Of a stretch of 25,013 nt of DNA, positions 1-10,637 are shown one piece after another (the first letter of the stretch is position 1; each line of letters starts with the position of its first letter). The translations under genes were made by a program, and so were the position numbers. Source of the DNA: a virus. The notes beneath the pieces were generated by a model. It was not told where the DNA came from. It saw nothing but the letters and a program-made list of their open reading frames with translations, and made no database searches. The stretch is taken from positions 1-25,013 of the IMG/VR virus record IMGVR_UViG_3300042507_000745; one strand, 5' to 3'.

Positions 1-1141
1 GCAAGCGTGTGGCATCCATAGCAACCATAGGGGCAGTGGTCAAAGCGAGTGAATCCAAGTGAGCCCGAGTCTGAGCATCAATAGCTTTCTGCATATTGAA
101 GGCTTTTTCCACTGTACCTCGCCCCAATAAACGATTAGGCACTGTATCGTCTTGATAAGACATTACAGGTCTATCTTTCATCATGTAAGGGTTTTCTTCA
201 GCCTTGAGCAACAAACCATCATTAGCAATTACGACAATGGCTTCAACCATATCGCTGTAGTCTTCTGCCGCTGAATTCTCAGGGAACAACTCAACAATGT
301 CTTTGTTTTCTTCCATGTTGTTGAGGTATTCACGGGGAACTAATCCGTAGTACGTCAACAAAAGAACCTTCTCATCTTGGTACTGGCTAACCTCTTGGGT
401 AGGCTCTAAGTCAGTATCTTCATAGGTGGGCGTGATGTCTACCTTGCGGTAGATGCCTTTTTCAATACCAGCTACAACCTTGTGGATTGAGACGTATTTC
501 TCAATAGCCACGCCCATGCAGTCATCAATAGATGTTCCATTAGGGTCAAACAAAAAGTTCTTGGGGTTGATAGGCATTATCTTCACGCCAATCCTGTCTC
601 TCTCAATCACGCCAATAGCGGCTTGACCCTGTTGATTAGGGATAAGTTGAGTAGAGGGGATATATTCTTTTTCAGTCTTGACAATGATCTCGCCAATGCC
701 TGTTCCATAGATTTCAGCCATCAATTCGATCTGGTCGATAGATTTCCTGATCTTGTCTTTCTTGAAATCTTCCATCATTTGAGACTTAATCATCTCAACA
801 TCTATAGGGTTTCCACCTATATCTTGGATGTTGTCTTCAATGTCAAAAAAGTCGCCTTGACCAAAGATAGCTTCCATGATCTCAGCATGGCGAGTCTCTA
901 CAGCTTGTTGGGTAGCAGGAGTTACGATTCGGCTACGCTCAGACTCACGGGTCTTATCTTCAGAAGCCCATTGACCACGGAAGATGCGCTCGTATTCCAG
1001 CCAATCAGGAAGAAAGTTGGTATCTCTGTAATCCCGCCATTTGGTGCAATGGTCAGTAACAAATGATGTAAGTTCTTTGTCAGCCTCGGTAGGCTGATAA
1101 AACTCGTTTTGTTCTAACTTGACTTCTTTGTCTGTTGCCAT
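1..1141 (-). CDS. Phage portal protein, N-terminal part (cut by window edge)
   Basis: The reading frame is open from an ATG at 1141 to the left edge, giving 380 codons with no stop. Portal proteins form the dodecameric ring at the head vertex through which DNA is packaged and ejected. The N-terminus is charged and helical (starts MATDKEVKLEQNEFY). Later come a stretch with RDRIGVKIMPINPKNFLFDP and, near the edge, RPVMSYQDDTVPNRLLGRGT followed by EKAFNMQKAIDAQTR, which match the central part of podovirus portal proteins. The start has an AAGG ribosome site and lies 4 bases after the stop of the 183-aa gene. Position after terS, terL and two small genes fits a portal. Family assignment is from recalled motif style; whether it is P22-like or another podovirus type is uncertain. 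Confidence 0.8.
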   Translation of the reverse strand, partial: MATDKEVKLEQNEFYQPTEADKELTSFVTDHCTKWRDYRDTNFLPDWLEYERIFRGQWASEDKTRESERSRIVTPATQQAVETRHAEIMEAIFGQGDFFDIEDNIQDIGGNPIDVEMIKSQMMEDFKKDKIRKSIDQIELMAEIYGTGIGEIIVKTEKEYIPSTQLIPNQQGQAAIGVIERDRIGVKIMPINPKNFLFDPNGTSIDDCMGVAIEKYVSIHKVVAGIEKGIYRKVDITPTYEDTDLEPTQEVSQYQDEKVLLLTYYGLVPREYLNNMEENKDIVELFPENSAAEDYSDMVEAIVVIANDGLLLKAEENPYMMKDRPVMSYQDDTVPNRLLGRGTVEKAFNMQKAIDAQTRAHLDSLALTTAPMVAMDATRL

Positions 1142-2591: not shown

Positions 2592-3851
2592 TTATATCCC
2601 CGAAATAATATCTAGAGGCTCCCACTCATCTTCTTGGTCATCAACAAAGTATGAGGTTACAGCCAGTTGGTCAATGTAGGAGAGAGCATCAGGTAAGTCA
2701 TCGTGAACACCTTGGGCTGGGAACATCAAGAGTTGATCTTTGAATTCATCCCAATCTTCCTCAGAGTTCAGCACAATACGCCCATGCTCAAACCTTCCTT
2801 GGAGACTCCAGATAATTCTGTCAGTCTTTTTCCTGTTGCCATGCGTTAAGTCAACTATATGGGAATATACATTATTTTTCCTCATTAGGTCACTCAAATA
2901 AGGCAAAACAGCGTTTTTTAACGCACCTCGCTCAATTCCAACACTCAAAGGGCGGTATTCCCGCATCTTCAGCAGAATCGTAGCAGCAGTCTCCCGAATG
3001 TCCCAACGCCCAAAAACAATCTCTTTGACAAACCATTTGCCATCATCAGTCACCTTAACAACAGCAATAGCAGTCTGGTCTAGCCTTTTCTTAGAGTTAG
3101 CCGCCTGTCTAGCTACTTCCTCAAATCCAGCCAAGTCAACAGCCACAAAGTAAGAACCATACTCAGGTTCTTCTCCGTACTTAATCCATTCTTCTTTGAA
3201 CACATCAGAGCCAGCATTGTCGAAAGATGCCATATACTCTTGCTTGAAGGCGAACGAACTTAGGGTCTTCTTCGCACTCTCGATTTCACTAGGGTCGATT
3301 AAAGGGTTATCTTTGGTTGTGAAATGCCAACTTTTCCAGTCTTTGTCTTCTTCCGACTGCCCTAAGTTATACAGGTCGTATAACCAATTTCGTCCCTTTG
3401 GTGTCGATATGAACAGGGCTTTACCCTTTTTGTCACTCAAACTTGCCCTAATTACCTGTTCCCAAGTCTCAGGCTTAATGTCAGCTACCTCATCCAGTAC
3501 CGCATAGGTCAGACTGATACCCCGCAAGGTATCAGGTCTGTCACTCCCCCTCACATATATCTTTGCGCCGTTAATCAAGGTAACTTCCATGTTGTTTACA
3601 TGGCTGCTCTGAATAATCTCTCGACCAACATCGAGCAGTACATCCCACACAATCTGTCTAGCCTGTCCTTGGGTTGGGGCGACATAAAGAACTGCAGACC
3701 CTGCAGGGCAACTCAACCCCTCAATCAGCAACGTAGTAACCGCTAACCTTGACTTACCGCACCGCCGACCAGCCACGACAACCTTGAACCTCGTCTTGTC
3801 GGCATAGACCTCCTGCTGCCAAGGCAGTAGCGCAAAGTTAAGGTCAGCCAT
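2592..3851 (-). CDS. terL: Terminase large subunit (ATPase and nuclease)
   Basis: The enzyme powers DNA translocation into the prohead and cuts the concatemer. At 419 aa it is close to the usual size. The ATPase half has Walker A at about residues 27-35 (AGRRCGKSR), Walker B with catalytic Glu at 116-121 (YAVLDE), and the coupling motif FISTPKG at 147-153. The RNase H-like nuclease half has VAVDLAG (Asp 239), VGIERGA (Glu 306) and HDDLPDAL (Asp 383/384 and 387), the expected acidic triad. The start overlaps the terS stop by 8 bases (ATGGCTGA), a typical translational coupling. All catalytic residues appear present, so it should be active. Confidence 0.96.
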   Translation of the reverse strand: MADLNFALLPWQQEVYADKTRFKVVVAGRRCGKSRLAVTTLLIEGLSCPAGSAVLYVAPTQGQARQIVWDVLLDVGREIIQSSHVNNMEVTLINGAKIYVRGSDRPDTLRGISLTYAVLDEVADIKPETWEQVIRASLSDKKGKALFISTPKGRNWLYDLYNLGQSEEDKDWKSWHFTTKDNPLIDPSEIESAKKTLSSFAFKQEYMASFDNAGSDVFKEEWIKYGEEPEYGSYFVAVDLAGFEEVARQAANSKKRLDQTAIAVVKVTDDGKWFVKEIVFGRWDIRETAATILLKMREYRPLSVGIERGALKNAVLPYLSDLMRKNNVYSHIVDLTHGNRKKTDRIIWSLQGRFEHGRIVLNSEEDWDEFKDQLLMFPAQGVHDDLPDALSYIDQLAVTSYFVDDQEDEWEPLDIISGI

Positions 3852-4266
3852 CTTTAGCCTCTATGTCTTCTATGTCTTTGGGTTCTTCTTCAACTGTCGT
3901 TGCCACTGGTGCGCCTATGCCCGTGATATTAATGGTGACTGCACTCCTCTGGCTCTTATCCTTCTCAAACATGGAGACAGGCAAGGTGCGGTCTACACAC
4001 ATCTTGATAGCCGCCATTTGAGCAGGGTGATTGTCATTCAACGCAATGGAAATCATCTTCTCGACAACATCCTTACCGCTTGACCTGATAAGCATATCCT
4101 TCAGGTCTTTAATTCTTTGATTATCGGTTTTGGGTAGGGCTAGTTCAGGATTCCTTGCGTACTCCTGTATCTGACGCTTTAAGCCAAATACACCCTTGGG
4201 TCTGCCAGCCTTCTTTTTGGTTGGCTCTGCTTCATCTTGGATGCTGTCCATCTGTTCTATCTTCAC
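3844..4266 (-). CDS. terS: Terminase small subunit (probable)
   Basis: This 140-aa protein lies directly upstream of terL and overlaps it by 8 bases, the normal place for the DNA-recognition subunit that selects the packaging site. It is basic and helical in the middle (KKKAGRPKGVFGLKRQIQEYAR, then KDLKDMLIRSSGKDVVEKMISIAL) with an acidic tail (EEEPKDIEDIEAKDG), as usual for TerS. The KKAGRPKG segment resembles an AT-hook-like DNA contact. It starts with GTG at 4266, with AAGGACAATC just upstream as ribosome site. The call rests on context more than motif. Confidence 0.8.
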   Translation of the reverse strand: MKIEQMDSIQDEAEPTKKKAGRPKGVFGLKRQIQEYARNPELALPKTDNQRIKDLKDMLIRSSGKDVVEKMISIALNDNHPAQMAAIKMCVDRTLPVSMFEKDKSQRSAVTINITGIGAPVATTVEEEPKDIEDIEAKDG

Positions 4267-4385: not shown

Positions 4386-4429
4386 GGGGGTCGGATGCTC
4401 CCACAACTTTGACCGACCGACCGACCCCC
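4386..4429. repeat. Inverted repeat GGGGGTCGG / CCGACCCCC with GACC tandem repeat
   Basis: GGGGGTCGG at 4386-4394 is the reverse complement of CCGACCCCC at 4421-4429. The loop contains four tandem GACC units (4411-4426). Long C and T runs lie next to it. It sits between terS and the DnaA-box cluster, so it could be part of the origin or a packaging recognition site; neither is shown. Confidence 0.5.
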
Positions 4430-4455
4430 CTCCCCCCCATCAAAAAATCGCCGAG

Positions 4456-4688
4456 TTATCCACAGGCAACTGTGGATACTGTGGATAACTTCTGTAAGTC
4501 ATTGATTTTGCTAGACATTTTTTCTATGCTTACAGATCGCTTACAAAATCGGTTTTATACAACATCCATTATGTTAACTTTAAATATCTGAAAGTGTTAC
4601 ACGCATATGCAAACTGAGACAGGAAATGAAACCAGATGGGCAAATTGTGGATAACTTCCTGTCCGATCTGTGGATAACCTGTGGATAA
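4456..4688. other. Candidate replication origin: six DnaA-box-like 9-mers around an AT-rich core
   Basis: TTATCCACA occurs at 4456-4464 on the plus strand. Minus-oriented copies (TGTGGATAA) lie at 4480-4488, 4646-4654, 4669-4677 and 4680-4688, and a one-mismatch copy (TGTGGATAC) at 4471-4479. Five are exact matches to the bacterial DnaA box consensus. They form two clusters of three, separated by about 160 bases of AT-rich sequence (4500-4620), which could serve as the unwinding element. The region lacks any convincing gene, since the only open frame across it is compositionally odd. This is what a chromosome-like or plasmid-like DnaA-dependent origin looks like. The inference is that host DnaA helps start phage replication. 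Confidence 0.75.
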
Positions 4689-4870: not shown

Positions 4871-5077
4871 TTATTGGTTATCCTTGTCTACCCCTAAGAA
4901 ATCCCTAAGATCGGCTTTAGGGCGGTATCCTAGTTCCCACAAGATTGCGTAGCAATCCAAGACATTCTTAAACCCATTGCTGATGTTTCCCTTGCCAGCA
5001 CAAAGCAAAATTGTCCTATCGGCATCAGTCAGCTTGCGCCTGAACTGGACTGTGGTTGTAGTCGGGGGTCTAGCCAT
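4871..5077 (-). CDS. Small ribbon-helix-helix-like protein (68 aa)
   Basis: The frame is open further upstream, but the ATG at 5077 is preferred. It gives the 8-base stop/start overlap ATGGCTAG with the upstream gene, like terS/terL. The product starts MARPPTTTTVQFRRKLTDAD and continues GKGNISNGFKNVLDCYAIL. A short polar strand followed by a G-N-(I/L)-S-x-G-(F/I)-+ helix turn resembles ribbon-helix-helix DNA-binding proteins (Arc/MetJ fold). It is the last gene of the leftward replication block and faces the candidate origin, so it may bind there or at the repeat array at 5749-5862. Both fold and target are inference. Confidence 0.68.
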   Translation of the reverse strand: MARPPTTTTVQFRRKLTDADRTILLCAGKGNISNGFKNVLDCYAILWELGYRPKADLRDFLGVDKDNQ

Positions 5078-5726
5078 GACCAATCGGCTTGTACTTAGCC
5101 TCATAAGGCTCACCAGAGAAGATCGCATCTAGGTCTTCTTCCATGTCATCAAACCCTGAACCTTGACCAAACCCTTCTTTGGGCGTGAACTTGGTAACTC
5201 TAGCAGTTGGCGACAGTGCTTTAGCCTTGATGATGGTCTGAACCTGTGGCTCTTGCAGGAATACCTCAAGTTCTTCCAAAGTCCAGATGTTCCCATTGTT
5301 TATGTCTTTGCGATGGGTCTGGAGTTCAACCGCATCGTTCTCAGTCCTGACCACTACCATCGGTACACCTCGGACTGACTTCCACTCAAGGAACTGGATG
5401 GGAGGGTTGGGTTCAATCTCATTTTCTTCAGCCCAAGTCTCCAACGCATCGAAACCTTTACACATTCCATTAACTGCTTTATGCAGCCTATCAATGTCAC
5501 CCATATCCACGGCATCCCAAACTCTACCCATCTGCACCCAAAACTTAGCCCTAAACCCAATGTCAACTAAAGTAATCAATCGGTCAACTCCCCATTTCTC
5601 GTAGTGCTGACTCTTTTTCCTCTCCAGTTCGACCAGCACAGCATTAGACTGAATCTCCCACTGAGTAGCCTGACGCTTTGGTACTTGAACATCTGGAACA
5701 TCTTTTCTCGACCTTGATCTAACCAT
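5070..5726 (-). CDS. Unknown 218-aa protein in the replication block
   Basis: Not recognised. The N-terminus is basic (MVRSRSRKDVPDVQVPKR), the middle is a mixed helical region rich in Trp and charged residues (KFWVQMGRVWDAVDMGDIDR), and the C-terminal part is acidic (FDDMEEDLDAIFSGEP). There is no signal peptide or membrane segment. The start has a strong AAGGAG ribosome site 8 bases upstream (TTAAGGAGTTATTAAAATG). It follows the primase-helicase after a 154-base repeat-rich gap and is coupled to the small RHH-like gene. Its place suggests a replication-associated role, but nothing in the sequence proves it. Confidence 0.72.
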   Translation of the reverse strand: MVRSRSRKDVPDVQVPKRQATQWEIQSNAVLVELERKKSQHYEKWGVDRLITLVDIGFRAKFWVQMGRVWDAVDMGDIDRLHKAVNGMCKGFDALETWAEENEIEPNPPIQFLEWKSVRGVPMVVVRTENDAVELQTHRKDINNGNIWTLEELEVFLQEPQVQTIIKAKALSPTARVTKFTPKEGFGQGSGFDDMEEDLDAIFSGEPYEAKYKPIGHG

Positions 5727-5880: not shown

Positions 5881-7893
5881 TCAGAAAGCCTCTGAACTGG
5901 ACTTCAACCACACCCAACCAGAGCCTATGACAATCTTATTCACGGCTACAAGTCTCTCCCTTGCTCGTAGCCATGCTTTCTTAAAGGCTGCTTTATCATC
6001 CTCTGTACAGCCTTTCATGCCCCAAAACTCTGCTCTCCAATCGTCTAAAGCCACTCCATACCTACTAGTACCATCTACTTCACGATATGAGCCTTTAGCT
6101 TTAATTACTTTCATTAGCGAATCCATCTCAATCTTCTGATTTCCACCGCTACCAGCGTTGTTTTTGTTGCCTTGTGAGTTGCTACCCGCTATGTCTTGGT
6201 TATGCCTAATGGCTAGTGAAGTGGTAATTTCAAAGCCAAGAGATGAAGTCCCAATCTCAACCAGTACGACCTCAATGCCTACGACTATGGAGTCAGCACC
6301 ATCCTTTTGCTTAGATACAGTCAGGATTGCATTGCCAATAACTGACGTATCTGCCGAGTTGATGACTGAATCCTGACGCTGTATCTCAAGTTCAGTATCT
6401 ACAGCACCAAGCAGGGAACTGTGACCTCTGAGTCCCTTTATGTGTTTGCCTGAGTGGTGAATGACCATCAAGGCACAGTTGTAGAGTTGCTGCAGCTTTC
6501 CTGTTTGGGAGATAAAGCCGCCCATATCTTCTGAGGAATTCTCGTTGAAGTTGCCGCCACTCATACGCATCAAGGTATCTAAGATGATGATTTCAAGTGG
6601 TTCATCAATTTGCGCCACTAACTCGTTGATTGCGCTGGTTAAGGCATCAAAGTCTTCTTGGCTTGATCTGATGTTGATTTGCGCTCTGATGACGTACAGG
6701 TTTGCGCCATCTGGTGAGTTATTCTGTATTTTGCAAGCCTTGACCCTTGCGCCCATACCGCCATGCCCTTCACCTGATATGAACAATACAGCCCCTTTCT
6801 TGGGTATTTTGTAGCCCATCCATTCACGACCAGTAGCTATTGCCTCTGCCAAGTCCAAGGCTATGAATGACTTCCAACTGGCAGGGGGGGCAAAGAGGGC
6901 AACAAATGCTCGTTTGGGGATGATGGACTCCACCAACCACTCAACTGGTTCATCCTTGATTGAGTCCCAAGACTCGACAAGGAACTTAGACTTTGCGGCT
7001 TCTTCTTGTGAAGTCTCAGGACTCTCCAACAATCTTTGCGGAGTGTGAACCTCGGCTATTGACTCCACAACGGGACAGGCTTTGGCTATTTGCGCCAGCA
7101 AGGTTCTGCTGCCATCGTATCTATTGACCCACTCGTAAGCATCCTCTTTGGGGTTACTTAGGTTCAAGTCCAAGACCCTGACGCTCTTTGCAAATGGTAT
7201 GAGTGCCTCTGTAACCTTCTGAGCGTAATGCCAACCTACTAGGTCATTGTCAGGCACGATTACCACGTTGGCATCTTTAAAGTATTGGTTTAACTCATCG
7301 TTCCAACCACCAGCGCCAGCGTGGGAAGTGGTAACTACCACGCCCAAGCTGCCAAGGGCATCTGCCGCCTTTTCACCTTCAGTTATATAGACAACCCTAC
7401 CAGCGGCTGTTGCCTGTTGCAGATCGGGCAGTTTGTAGGGGACTATTCTGCAATCTCCCAACTTACCTACTCTTGTGCCATCGGGCATGACCCTCAAGGT
7501 CTTATATGTCTTGCCTTTAGAGTCAAAGGTCTTGAATCTTTGCTTGATGAATAGGCTGATGCCATCTTCATCGGTGTAGTGCCATTCATGCTCTAGCACT
7601 GGCGTAGAGATGAGTGGGATTGGTTTCATGGGTTTGATACTGTCGAGGTAGTCTGGTCTATCAGGTAATGCTGGCAGAAGTCCCATCTCTTTGATGGTAG
7701 AGAAAACTGTATGCTGGTCACAGCCGCCATGACACTTGAACAGGGGGTTGCCATCATCTGACATAGTTATGGACAGGCTTGGGTGCTTGTCTCCGTTACC
7801 TTGACCATGACTAGGTACGGGGCAACTAGCAAGGTAACCACCGCCTACTTTCTTTGCGTTACCCAGTATGGACGCTATTTCTTGTGCTGACAT
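5881..7893 (-). CDS. Primase-helicase (zinc finger, TOPRIM, RecA-like ATPase)
   Basis: This 670-aa protein has the order expected for a phage or plasmid primase-helicase. The N-terminal CHC2-like zinc site has Cys24, His29, Cys54 and Cys58 (CPVPSHG and KCHGGCD). The TOPRIM fold at about 167-225 shows VVYITEGEKAADAL with Glu172 and VIVPDND with Asp215 and Asp217. A RepA/DnaB-type RecA core follows, with Walker A APPASWKS (335-342), Walker B EIIILD (434-439) and HH at 479-480. Walker A is unusual in having APPASWKS where G-rich loops are common, but AAA_25/RepA-type proteins use such forms. It should make primers and unwind DNA at the phage fork. No strong ribosome site precedes the ATG at 7893. 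Confidence 0.9.
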   Translation of the reverse strand: MSAQEIASILGNAKKVGGGYLASCPVPSHGQGNGDKHPSLSITMSDDGNPLFKCHGGCDQHTVFSTIKEMGLLPALPDRPDYLDSIKPMKPIPLISTPVLEHEWHYTDEDGISLFIKQRFKTFDSKGKTYKTLRVMPDGTRVGKLGDCRIVPYKLPDLQQATAAGRVVYITEGEKAADALGSLGVVVTTSHAGAGGWNDELNQYFKDANVVIVPDNDLVGWHYAQKVTEALIPFAKSVRVLDLNLSNPKEDAYEWVNRYDGSRTLLAQIAKACPVVESIAEVHTPQRLLESPETSQEEAAKSKFLVESWDSIKDEPVEWLVESIIPKRAFVALFAPPASWKSFIALDLAEAIATGREWMGYKIPKKGAVLFISGEGHGGMGARVKACKIQNNSPDGANLYVIRAQINIRSSQEDFDALTSAINELVAQIDEPLEIIILDTLMRMSGGNFNENSSEDMGGFISQTGKLQQLYNCALMVIHHSGKHIKGLRGHSSLLGAVDTELEIQRQDSVINSADTSVIGNAILTVSKQKDGADSIVVGIEVVLVEIGTSSLGFEITTSLAIRHNQDIAGSNSQGNKNNAGSGGNQKIEMDSLMKVIKAKGSYREVDGTSRYGVALDDWRAEFWGMKGCTEDDKAAFKKAWLRARERLVAVNKIVIGSGWVWLKSSSEAF

Positions 7894-7965: not shown

Positions 7966-8556
7966 TTAGCTAAACATCTCATCGTCATCAAGTGATGGTG
8001 CTGGCTTTGATGGTGCTGGTTTGCTAGGTGCGGGTTTAGATGGTGCTGGCGCAGAGAACTCAGGTTCTGCTTGCGATGCACCTTCTTGTAATGCCGCTGG
8101 TCTAGCTACCCAACCTGTGACAGTGAACTCAGGTACACGAGTGCTGCCCTTACCAACCTTTTCGGGGCGTGAGCCTGTATATTCAACCACGGGTAACTTA
8201 CCAGCATTAGCGCCAGCTTGCGCTTGCACTTGCTTGTACAGGAATTCCAAGCCCATGTTAGCCCCTGCACCGTTAGCACTAAATTCTGCGACTCCCATAG
8301 TCTTGTTGTAAAACGTAGCCTTGAAGCCACGCTTGAATTCGGGTGTAGGTTGTGCGCCTTTACGACCAAGAGACTCATCAGGTTGGAATTCAAAGATGCC
8401 AGTTGCAATAAGCATCCATCCAGTTTGCAAGCTCTCGTAGTCAAAGACGAATTTCTCTAAGACAAATTCACCATCTTGGTTTGTCCAAGCGTTTGCTTGG
8501 GGAGAGAAGCGGATGTAGTTTCCAGAGCCGCCAGAGTTTGAGAGGTTTAAATTCAT
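7966..8556 (-). CDS. Probable single-stranded DNA-binding protein (196 aa)
   Basis: The C-terminus is the clearest sign: a Pro/Ala/Ser linker with three PAPSK repeats (about residues 170-188) ends in LDDDEMFS, an acidic tip with a near-terminal Phe like those by which SSB proteins recruit partners. The N-terminal 150 residues have the beta-rich, aromatic look of an OB fold (GNYIRFSPQANAW, FDYESLQTGWMLIATGIFEF, TVTGWV). Size and place between the nuclease and primase-helicase fit phage SSB. A good AGGAAA site lies 6 bases before the ATG. A terminator follows. The family could not be confirmed without a search. Confidence 0.72.
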   Translation of the reverse strand: MNLNLSNSGGSGNYIRFSPQANAWTNQDGEFVLEKFVFDYESLQTGWMLIATGIFEFQPDESLGRKGAQPTPEFKRGFKATFYNKTMGVAEFSANGAGANMGLEFLYKQVQAQAGANAGKLPVVEYTGSRPEKVGKGSTRVPEFTVTGWVARPAALQEGASQAEPEFSAPAPSKPAPSKPAPSKPAPSLDDDEMFS

Positions 8557-8626: not shown

Positions 8627-9715
8627 TTATTGAGTCAAACCTTTGTCACGTGCAAGCGTTAATCCGCTAGATATGCGGGAAGTTAACGCTTCAAGGTTCG
8701 GCTTTTGGTCTTTTGTTAGCAGTTTCTCAGCTTGTGCAGGGGTGATGATTTCGGTCTTTGTTACTTGGCGAGCGTCAAGCCCCAAGGCTAGGAGTCCAGC
8801 ATAAGCCTCTTTCTCATCAGTCCACGACCTCAACGCTCGTTTAGGTTGCAGTTGCCAACCATCAATGACAGAGCCTGATTCCATGCGTTTTAAGGCGTGA
8901 TCTCGTACCGCCTTGATGTAGCCCTCAACCATGTCAAACTTAGTCAGCAAGACGCTGATTTGACCCTCTGTGAGCATCTCTACAGGCGGTGCAGTGGCAA
9001 CTACTTCAGCAATGTTTGCTTGTGCAGGGCAGATAGTTCTAGCGTTGCAGTATTGGCAAGCAGAGTCCGAGGGTACGGGTTGGAACAGTGGGTTGGTTGC
9101 ATTGTCAATGGCAGGGACAAGAACGTAGTGTTCCCAATCAACTAGTTCTTGCGTTGTCATTGAGTGCTTGCGAGTCTCACCATGATGGGGTTGAATAATC
9201 CATAACTCGACAGTATCAATGTCTTTGTAGAGTTGCTCACCTTCCAGTGCAGCCAATGCGTAAAGACGTAGCTGGTCATTGTCTTCACTGACGTAGCCTC
9301 TACCAGTTTTCAGGTCTGCAATGATTAGCTTGCGCTTCTTCTTACTGATGCCGATTACGTCTGTAGTACCGCCTACCTTGACCTTGTTTGTGTCTTGGTA
9401 AGGCAGGAACTTCTCGACTATCACGCTACCCTTACCCAGTTCATCTTCCATAGCCCAAATAGCTTTCAGATGCTCAAGCGCCATTTCACAGTTTTCCTCA
9501 GTCATGGTGATACCTTCCACGACTGCACCGATTGACTTCATGGGGTCAGAATCCAACTGAAAGCAAGTCTCTGCCAAGGCATGAATGGCAGTCCCGATCT
9601 TTGCCGCCTCGCCGCCTTCCACGTATGGCATGAGTGCTGAGAGTCTGGCAGAGGCGGGACAGGCAATCCATCGGGATGCCGCTGATGCTCTAAGGTTTAA
9701 TTGTTTGATTGCCAT
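8627..9715 (-). CDS. PD-(D/E)XK nuclease of the DUF2800 / RecB-Cas4-like type
   Basis: This 362-aa protein has the RecB-family nuclease signature. GTAIHALAETCF (His45, Glu49) supplies the early motif, GGTTDV gives Asp119, IIADLKTGRG gives Asp134 and Lys136, and NDQLRLYALAAL gives Gln148. Four cysteines suited to an iron-sulfur cluster are present: Cys19 (WIACPAS) and Cys220, 223 and 229 (ACQYCNARTICPA), as in Cas4/AddB-like enzymes and the phage DUF2800 family. It probably trims DNA ends in recombination or replication, working with the SSB-like protein next door. All expected catalytic residues are present. Exonuclease polarity cannot be told from sequence. Confidence 0.88.
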   Translation of the reverse strand: MAIKQLNLRASAASRWIACPASARLSALMPYVEGGEAAKIGTAIHALAETCFQLDSDPMKSIGAVVEGITMTEENCEMALEHLKAIWAMEDELGKGSVIVEKFLPYQDTNKVKVGGTTDVIGISKKKRKLIIADLKTGRGYVSEDNDQLRLYALAALEGEQLYKDIDTVELWIIQPHHGETRKHSMTTQELVDWEHYVLVPAIDNATNPLFQPVPSDSACQYCNARTICPAQANIAEVVATAPPVEMLTEGQISVLLTKFDMVEGYIKAVRDHALKRMESGSVIDGWQLQPKRALRSWTDEKEAYAGLLALGLDARQVTKTEIITPAQAEKLLTKDQKPNLEALTSRISSGLTLARDKGLTQ

Positions 9716-9921
9716 GATGCTCTTTCAATGTGATGGTTTTCAATGAGTAACTGATAGGCTAATTTGCGTATCTCATTTGAGACTGCATGACCCAAGTCAT
9801 CGGGGTCTAGCAGACGCTTAATGAAGACTACAGTCTGCTGGTTCTGCCTACGCTCTTGATCTAGCTGTGAGCCTAGCCAAACGATATGCTCACGCAAGGT
9901 TTGCCGTTCTTTGTCATCCAT
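9697..9921 (-). CDS. Small unknown helical protein (74 aa)
   Basis: Not recognised. The protein is highly charged and helical (MDDKERQTLREHIVWLGSQL, then FIKRLLDPDDLGHAVSNEIR), likely coiled-coil at the N-terminus. It overlaps the RuvC-like gene by 8 bases (ATGGATGA) at its start and the nuclease gene by 19 bases at its end, so it is translated within a tight replication/recombination operon. No catalytic motif is seen. Confidence 0.7.
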   Translation of the reverse strand: MDDKERQTLREHIVWLGSQLDQERRQNQQTVVFIKRLLDPDDLGHAVSNEIRKLAYQLLIENHHIERASWQSNN

Positions 9922-10405
9922 GCCTCAACCCCCAAGCTGCTATCAATGCCGCATCAGCCCTGCCATCGTCTTTGACTCGTTTGAACAGGTCAACATTCCA
10001 AGGGAAGACTTCCATTGCTCTAGCCCTAGCGCCATCCTTGCCCCCTGAGACTCCCATAGCTTTCTGCCAAACTTGTGGAGTAACGAGAGTGGACTTGATT
10101 GATCTAGCCGCTATAACGCCTTCTATAGCCCCTAGAGAGCGCCCAAATGAGAACACGCTTGTTACCCCCTGCCCACTCATTGCAAACACCTTCTCGATGT
10201 ACGCTTCTGTAGGCTTAAACAGATCAAGTATTTCAATCAGTTCAGGGATGCTGATCTGCCTCTTGGCTTTGCCATTGCGATCTAAGGTGACTGTTGGCAT
10301 ATCGACTACACCTGTGAGAGTCTCGCCTTGCATCATCGCAATAGCCCCATTCAAGCCAACGTCAATGCCAATGATTCGGCGTGGTGTAAAGACTGTAGTG
10401 GTCAT
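9914..10405 (-). CDS. RuvC-like Holliday junction resolvase
   Basis: The 163-aa product has the RNase H-like resolvase layout. IIGIDVGLNGAIA carries the first catalytic Asp (Asp15), EAYIEKVFAM the Glu (Glu71), and DDGRADAALIAAWGL the C-terminal acidic residues (Asp147 and Asp151), matching the length and spacing of RuvC-type proteins. A conserved SFGRSLGAIEG helix follows the Glu motif as in RuvC. It should cut four-way junctions made during replication or recombination and help clear concatemer branches before packaging. It overlaps the HTH gene by 4 bases (ATGA). Confidence 0.9.
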   Translation of the reverse strand: MTTTVFTPRRIIGIDVGLNGAIAMMQGETLTGVVDMPTVTLDRNGKAKRQISIPELIEILDLFKPTEAYIEKVFAMSGQGVTSVFSFGRSLGAIEGVIAARSIKSTLVTPQVWQKAMGVSGGKDGARARAMEVFPWNVDLFKRVKDDGRADAALIAAWGLRHG

Positions 10406-10629
10406 TCTGCACCCCCATTTAAAGCCATCAGACGCTGCTGAATTAGGGAATCTACCGATTCCTCTAGCCGTTGTATTGAAGTCACGAGTGGTATGGTTCT
10501 ACCAGTTGCATAGCGACTAACTTGTGATGGGTCAAAGCCAGCATGACGGGCAACATCGGTGATGGTGTAGCCAGCCTTTTCAGCCTTTTCCCTAATGTTT
10601 TCAATGGTTTGCATGGTTGGAGTGTTCAT
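10402..10629 (-). CDS. Cro/CI-type helix-turn-helix regulator (75 aa)
   Basis: The ATG at 10629 is chosen; a TTG two codons upstream is possible. The core NIREKAEKAGYTITDVARHAGFDPSQVSRYATGRTIP is an XRE-family HTH (helices 2 and 3: TITDVARHAG and PSQVSRYA). The rest is a short dimer-type tail. There is no clear ribosome site; a -10-like TAGAAT ends 9 bases before the ATG, so the mRNA could be nearly leaderless, as for lambda cI from PRM. It is first in the leftward block and divergent from the rightward genes, so it likely controls both. Confidence 0.85.
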   Translation of the reverse strand: MNTPTMQTIENIREKAEKAGYTITDVARHAGFDPSQVSRYATGRTIPLVTSIQRLEESVDSLIQQRLMALNGGAE

Positions 10630-10637
10630 AGCCAAGG

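Follow-up and report, generated by a model that had tools for sequence, protein, structure and literature searches.

Xer recombination sites on plasmids and filamentous phages, and replication origins built around DnaA boxes, are each already known. In P1 oriR, RK2 and pSC101, several TTATCCACA boxes lie by AT-rich DNA and adjoin the replication genes. The locus described here, part of an IMG/VR virus record of 25,013 bases that was analyzed as a whole (the window), differs from these origins in that no identified initiator gene lies alongside and a predicted Xer site lies between the boxes. Plasmid Xer sites work with accessory proteins, namely ArgR and PepA at cer and ArcA and PepA at psi (PMC5357621). 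The XerC arm of dif is usually CGCATAA; the type found in the phages described below is unusual but fits the dif of Rhodoferax, ACTTGATACGA-TGTATA-TTATGTTAAGT (PMC2731167). On balance, and with modest confidence, we favor the reading that the phage locus combines a DnaA-dependent origin with an Xer multimer-resolution site, both of which would be run by host proteins. The phages that carry it are uncultured and mostly of freshwater type, and they form a large group.

The original prediction placed here six DnaA-box-like 9-mers, five of them exact, in two clusters flanking AT-rich, gene-free DNA, and all of these features are present (Table 1). Five exact copies of TTATCCACA occur in the 25,013 bases, every one of them inside 4456-4688, together with one single-mismatch box. 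Base composition predicts 0.26 copies per window and 0.0024 per 233 bases, and the Poisson probability of five copies in 233 bases is ~6e-16; their number is thus far beyond chance, as had been claimed. The boxes fall in the non-coding gap between terS (3844-4266) and a small replication-side ORF (4871-5071), both on the minus strand, which agrees with the predicted position between terS and the replication block. AT content is 66-76% in 50-base windows across 4480-4600, and just 14 of 2492 100-base windows rank above 4520-4619 in AT-richness. The spacer between the two clusters is a candidate unwinding region. Strong boxes clustered in gene-free DNA would also suit a decoy that titrates host DnaA and slows host replication (compare datA), or boxes that regulate neighboring genes. 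We regard either role as very unlikely, since a phage carries only one to six boxes, these keep a fixed register to the Xer site (see below), and a promoter and terminator scan gave signals at chance level. Between the box cluster and terS, the window and its relatives share a conserved C/G-run (4421-4440; minus strand GGGGGGGAGGGGGT, which includes GGGNAGGG), and its motif CCCCTCCCC is present in 8 of 36 element flanks. Possible roles for this run are a packaging signal, a KOPS-like element and a G-quadruplex element. A reading of GGGNAGGG in the G-run beside terS as an FtsK KOPS was dropped, as the motif faces away from the Xer site and box-less relatives have it too.

Table 1. Features at and around the box locus (feature, position in the window, strand, remarks; offsets are from the first base of the XerC arm)
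TerL, large terminase subunit	2592..3851	-	preceded by TerS
TerS, small terminase subunit	3844..4266	-	assigned by position before TerL
DnaA box TTATCCACA	4456..4464	+	exact; offset -96
Weak DnaA box GTATCCACA	4471..4479	-	one mismatch; offset -81
DnaA box TTATCCACA	4480..4488	-	exact; offset -72
AT-rich stretch separating the box clusters	4489..4645	.	contains the predicted Xer site and short TGTAAG/CTTACA repeats (alignment of relatives)
Predicted dif/cer-type Xer site	4552..4579	+	best dif-profile match in whole window; predicted from sequence
XerC arm GTTTTATACAA	4552-4562	+	part of Xer site
Xer site center CATCCA	4563-4568	+	six bases between arms
XerD arm TTATGTTAACT	4569-4579	+	part of Xer site
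DnaA box TTATCCACA	4646..4654	-	exact; offset +94
DnaA box TTATCCACA	4669..4677	-	exact; offset +117
DnaA box TTATCCACA	4680..4688	-	exact; offset +128
Small conserved protein, ~66 aa	4871..5071	-	ORF called from 5128; between replication genes and boxes
Conserved 218-aa protein	5070..5726	-	adjoins helicase; no Pfam, PHROGs or fold match
Primase/helicase, AAA_25, RepA-type	5881..7893	-	boxes co-occur with helicase module
Putative ssDNA-binding protein	7966..8556	-	by position only; no family match
DUF2800 / PD-(D/E)XK exonuclease	8627..9715	-	replication block
RuvC-like Holliday junction resolvase	9914..10405	-	replication block

In an alignment of the relatives' regions, a conserved core is visible between the boxes. 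In the window it sits in the middle of the spacer, between the two box clusters, and had been overlooked in the original prediction. Xer sites are recognized by two 11-base arms that lie 6-8 bases apart and an XerD arm near TTATGTTAA; the core has this arrangement, with a six-base gap. When the window was scored with a profile of 31 proteobacterial dif sites (PMC2731167), the center being ignored, 4552-4579 reached 17.3 bits, compared with 4.2 for the next unrelated match in the window and 14.1 for the best of 60 Markov shuffles; the core of one relative (L158) scored 23.6 bits, inside the range of genuine dif sites. The window XerC arm is weaker than that of the best copies, agreeing with Rhodoferax at 7 of 11 positions, whereas in some phage copies 20-21 of the 22 arm positions are identical to those of the Rhodoferax dif. 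An IMG/VR pattern scan, combined with loci fetched previously, gave 202 copies of the core in 36 clusters with dissimilar flanks. Across the ~200 copies, the XerD arm is nearly always TTATGTTAA plus two bases and the XerC arm follows the pattern [AG][CT]TTNA[TC]AC[AG]A; the arms are conserved and the center is variable. Information content was 1.47 bits for the XerC arm, 1.18 for the center, 1.84 for the XerD arm and 0.17/0.34 for the flanks, values that come from copies selected in part with a pattern whose XerD arm was fixed. The scan preset the letters of that arm, whereas the loci chosen by protein did not, and these followed the same trend, with arms kept and centers varying. Even close relatives differ in the center (TGTCCA, CATCCA, TGACCA, CGACCA, CGGGCA), TGTCCA being the commonest. 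Based on these comparisons, 4552-4579 is a predicted dif/cer-type XerC/XerD site. A few Xer-like copies, however, are without exact DnaA boxes, which counts against the combined reading. Three box-less relatives (L051, L068 and L040) have a site very similar to the Rhodoferax dif, for example ACTTGATGCAA-TAAATA-TTATGTTAAGT, with no exact DnaA boxes nearby.

The boxes keep a register to this core. Measured from the first base of the XerC arm, they recur at +38 (+), +78-80 (+), +93-95 (-), +116-118 (-), +127/128 (-), -96/-95 (+) and -72 (-), and the exact boxes of the window lie at -96, -72, +94, +117 and +128. Among 21 box-bearing clusters with dissimilar flanks, which have common ancestry and may have inherited the register in part, 149 box positions are shared, on the same strand and to within 1 base; when each cluster was block-shifted at random (2000 trials), the mean was 11.7 and the maximum 34. 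Over the 50 bases after the XerD arm, mean identity among the 21 clusters is 37%. A blind count of 9-mers in the flanks, in which DnaA was not assumed, placed TTATCCACA first (20 of 36 clusters; the best unrelated 9-mer was found in 8 of 36), and DnaA boxes were the only dominant flanking motif recognized beside the core. These comparisons show that spacing was preserved during sequence change, rather than independent invention. A plain DnaA-dependent origin, whose core is the target of a phage initiator or repressor and merely resembles an Xer site, would account for several of these features: the core is nearly palindromic and lies within the AT-rich stretch, its distance to the boxes is kept as at the initiator sites of iteron plasmids, and in host islands similar cores precede an HTH gene. 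Nevertheless, the XerC arm ATAC[AG]A, the six-base gap and the XerD arm TTATGTTAA jointly fit the peculiar dif of the probable host family, the center is more variable than the arms, and no gene adjoining the site could be identified as an initiator. We therefore consider such an origin improbable. The origin originally proposed is upheld insofar as the boxes are clustered by AT-rich DNA and conserved; it is not simply oriC-like, as the Xer site is central and the boxes stand in register with it.

To follow the inheritance of the boxes, we compared two sets of IMG/VR loci. The first comprised 80 loci whose TerL is 86-97% identical, 50 of them with enough DNA upstream of TerL. At least two boxes were present upstream of TerL in 18 of 18 loci with the helicase module and in 0 of 32 without it; in two sampled relatives that lack the module, its place is taken by a RecE-like exonuclease and a Sak-type annealing protein. 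The second set comprised 80 loci fetched by helicase. It included a group, clade B, in which the helicase is ~49% identical and no homolog of the window TerS/TerL was detectable, but the core is kept along with three boxes, which immediately follow the helicase and 218-aa genes. The helicase gene and boxes are both seen in 127 element copies, and in every one the boxes are downstream of that gene, at a median distance of ~1.3 kb. The boxes are thus conserved at this locus in related phages, as a proposed check had asked, in all 18 compared loci that have the helicase module. A coupling of replication start to packaging had also been suggested. Because the boxes track the helicase module, and occur in clade B without a homologous terminase, the adjacency to the terminase is, on this comparison, apparently incidental and the packaging idea fails; phages with a near-identical TerL but another replication module have no boxes. 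Both clades keep the 218-aa protein next to the helicase. It is a candidate helicase loader or initiator; a fold search returned nothing below E 0.001 (predicted model pLDDT 69.7).

We also assessed the relatives for genes that bear on replication and lifestyle. The earlier remark that no phage DNA polymerase is in view held for the relatives tested: DNA_pol_A was not found in 19 related records and DNA_pol_B was not found in 12, among them two of 33.7 and 35.8 kb that have end repeats and look complete. The use of host DnaA is the natural reading of the locus, because the boxes are conserved and non-random, a helicase-primase is present and no DNA polymerase is recognizable. A GC-skew switch, named earlier as a further check, is absent; skew tracks gene orientation (the coding strand), with no turn at the boxes. 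GC-skew switches mark bidirectional chromosome origins, and their absence counts weakly against an origin in a 35-kb phage. No cultured relative closer than ~34% identity was found for the helicase or TerL, and no close plasmid relative was found. A blastn search of the region against phages and plasmids gave short, box-driven matches only, for example to gokushoviruses. One of these (L303, MT135265.1, Gokushovirinae) has five exact TTATCCACA in ~150 non-coding bases, with no dif-like site in the stretch checked. The window also encodes a small XRE/Cro-type regulator (10402-10635), the sole hint of a possible non-lytic state.

The XerC arm of the window is of the same type as the chromosomal dif of one bacterial genome family (that of G231). 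A Rhodoferax-type dif with fixed outer letters was found in 0 of 399 genomes of the phylum; a relaxed dif pattern, which recovered the Rhodoferax-type dif, led to this family. Its chromosomal dif is mostly CTT[CTG]ATACGA-TGTATA-TTATGTTAA, and CTTNATACRA-N6-TTATGTTAA was present within two mismatches in 61 of 151 sampled genomes of the family, with a center that is mostly TGTATA. From the Rhodoferax match, a Comamonadaceae/Burkholderiaceae host would be expected, and we infer that the G231 family is the host family. Among the ordinary host dif sites examined, with TGTATA or a close variant as center, a single site has a box within 300 bases and the others none. Genomes of the G231 family additionally hold a second Xer-like site (center CG[GA]G[CT]G), which precedes an HTH gene and has TTATCCACA boxes close by (L306/L337 and L346 in G438, L309/L338 in G459, L334 and L350-L351 in G472, L335/L352 in G566). 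Scans of the islands that were examined showed a tyrosine integrase in G566 and a Toprim/PriCT-2/DUF927 primase in G438 and G472. The pairing of DnaA boxes with an Xer site thus recurs outside phages, because these host-family islands hold an Xer-like site and boxes.

A host-type Xer arm raises a further alternative, that the core is an attP through which an integrase-less phage integrates at host dif by means of host XerCD, as IMEX such as CTX-phi and VGJ-phi do, and that the boxes are an adjoining origin. Consistent with this, a tyrosine integrase (PF00589) was not found in 24 related records, an XRE-type regulator is present, and the commonest center, TGTCCA, shares its XerC-side TGT with the dif center TGTATA. 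However, centers vary between close relatives, the CATCCA of the window has no matching XerC-side triplet, and chromosomal dif centers are mostly TGTATA. Furthermore, a search for the helicase in 84,980 cellular genomes gave one distant match only and no prophages or integrated copies, and an attP does not need boxes in a fixed register. We thus judge integration at dif unlikely.

Returning to a combined origin and resolution site, we propose the following model. Host DnaA would bind the boxes flanking the AT-rich stretch and open it, whereupon the phage helicase-primase and the host replicase would start theta-type, plasmid-like replication of the circle. Host XerC/XerD, acting at the Xer site, would turn multimers of the circular genome made by recombination into monomers, as at cer and psi. 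Because the boxes hold a fixed distance and orientation from the Xer site, we further propose that DnaA may shape a single nucleoprotein complex with XerCD, much as ArgR and PepA do at cer. That DnaA binds, that the origin fires, that XerCD recombines the site and that DnaA and Xer cooperate are all inferred from sequence. More tentatively, and with considerable doubt, DnaA could be an architectural partner of XerC/XerD at dif-like sites in a widespread group of tailed phages and in islands integrated in their hosts, one complex linking initiation to resolution. Resolution would bring no obvious benefit to a lytic phage that packages concatemers, and ParA (PF13614) was not found in 12 relatives, so that stable maintenance as a plasmid prophage is hypothetical.

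Many uncultured phages have no recognizable polymerase or integrase, and the locus gives a concrete, testable answer as to how such phages might replicate and persist; the family-specific XerC arm also provides a sequence handle for host assignment. The open-access papers searched contained no description of DnaA boxes combined with an Xer site at a fixed spacing, and none of a site of this kind in a tailed phage. If the proposed complex is real, it would be the first indication, within the literature searched, that DnaA and Xer act together in a single complex. Compared with the chromosomal dif of Burkholderiales (Rhodoferax type), the phage site shares both 11-base arm types and the six-base gap, but its center is different and variable, and nearly all chromosomal dif sites examined are without boxes within 300 bases. 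The attP sites of IMEX phages (CTX-phi, VGJ-phi, XacF1) are likewise dif-like sites on phages without an integrase; however, those phages are filamentous and integrated at dif, whereas the carriers here are tailed, their centers are unlike host dif and no prophages were found. As in cer of ColE1 and psi of pSC101, the non-coding DNA of an extrachromosomal replicon contains a short XerC/XerD core, which resembles dif in its XerD arm but not in its center and adjoins sites for another host DNA-binding protein. In contrast to cer and psi, the adjoining sites here are DnaA boxes, which lie on both sides of the core, and the carrier is a tailed phage.
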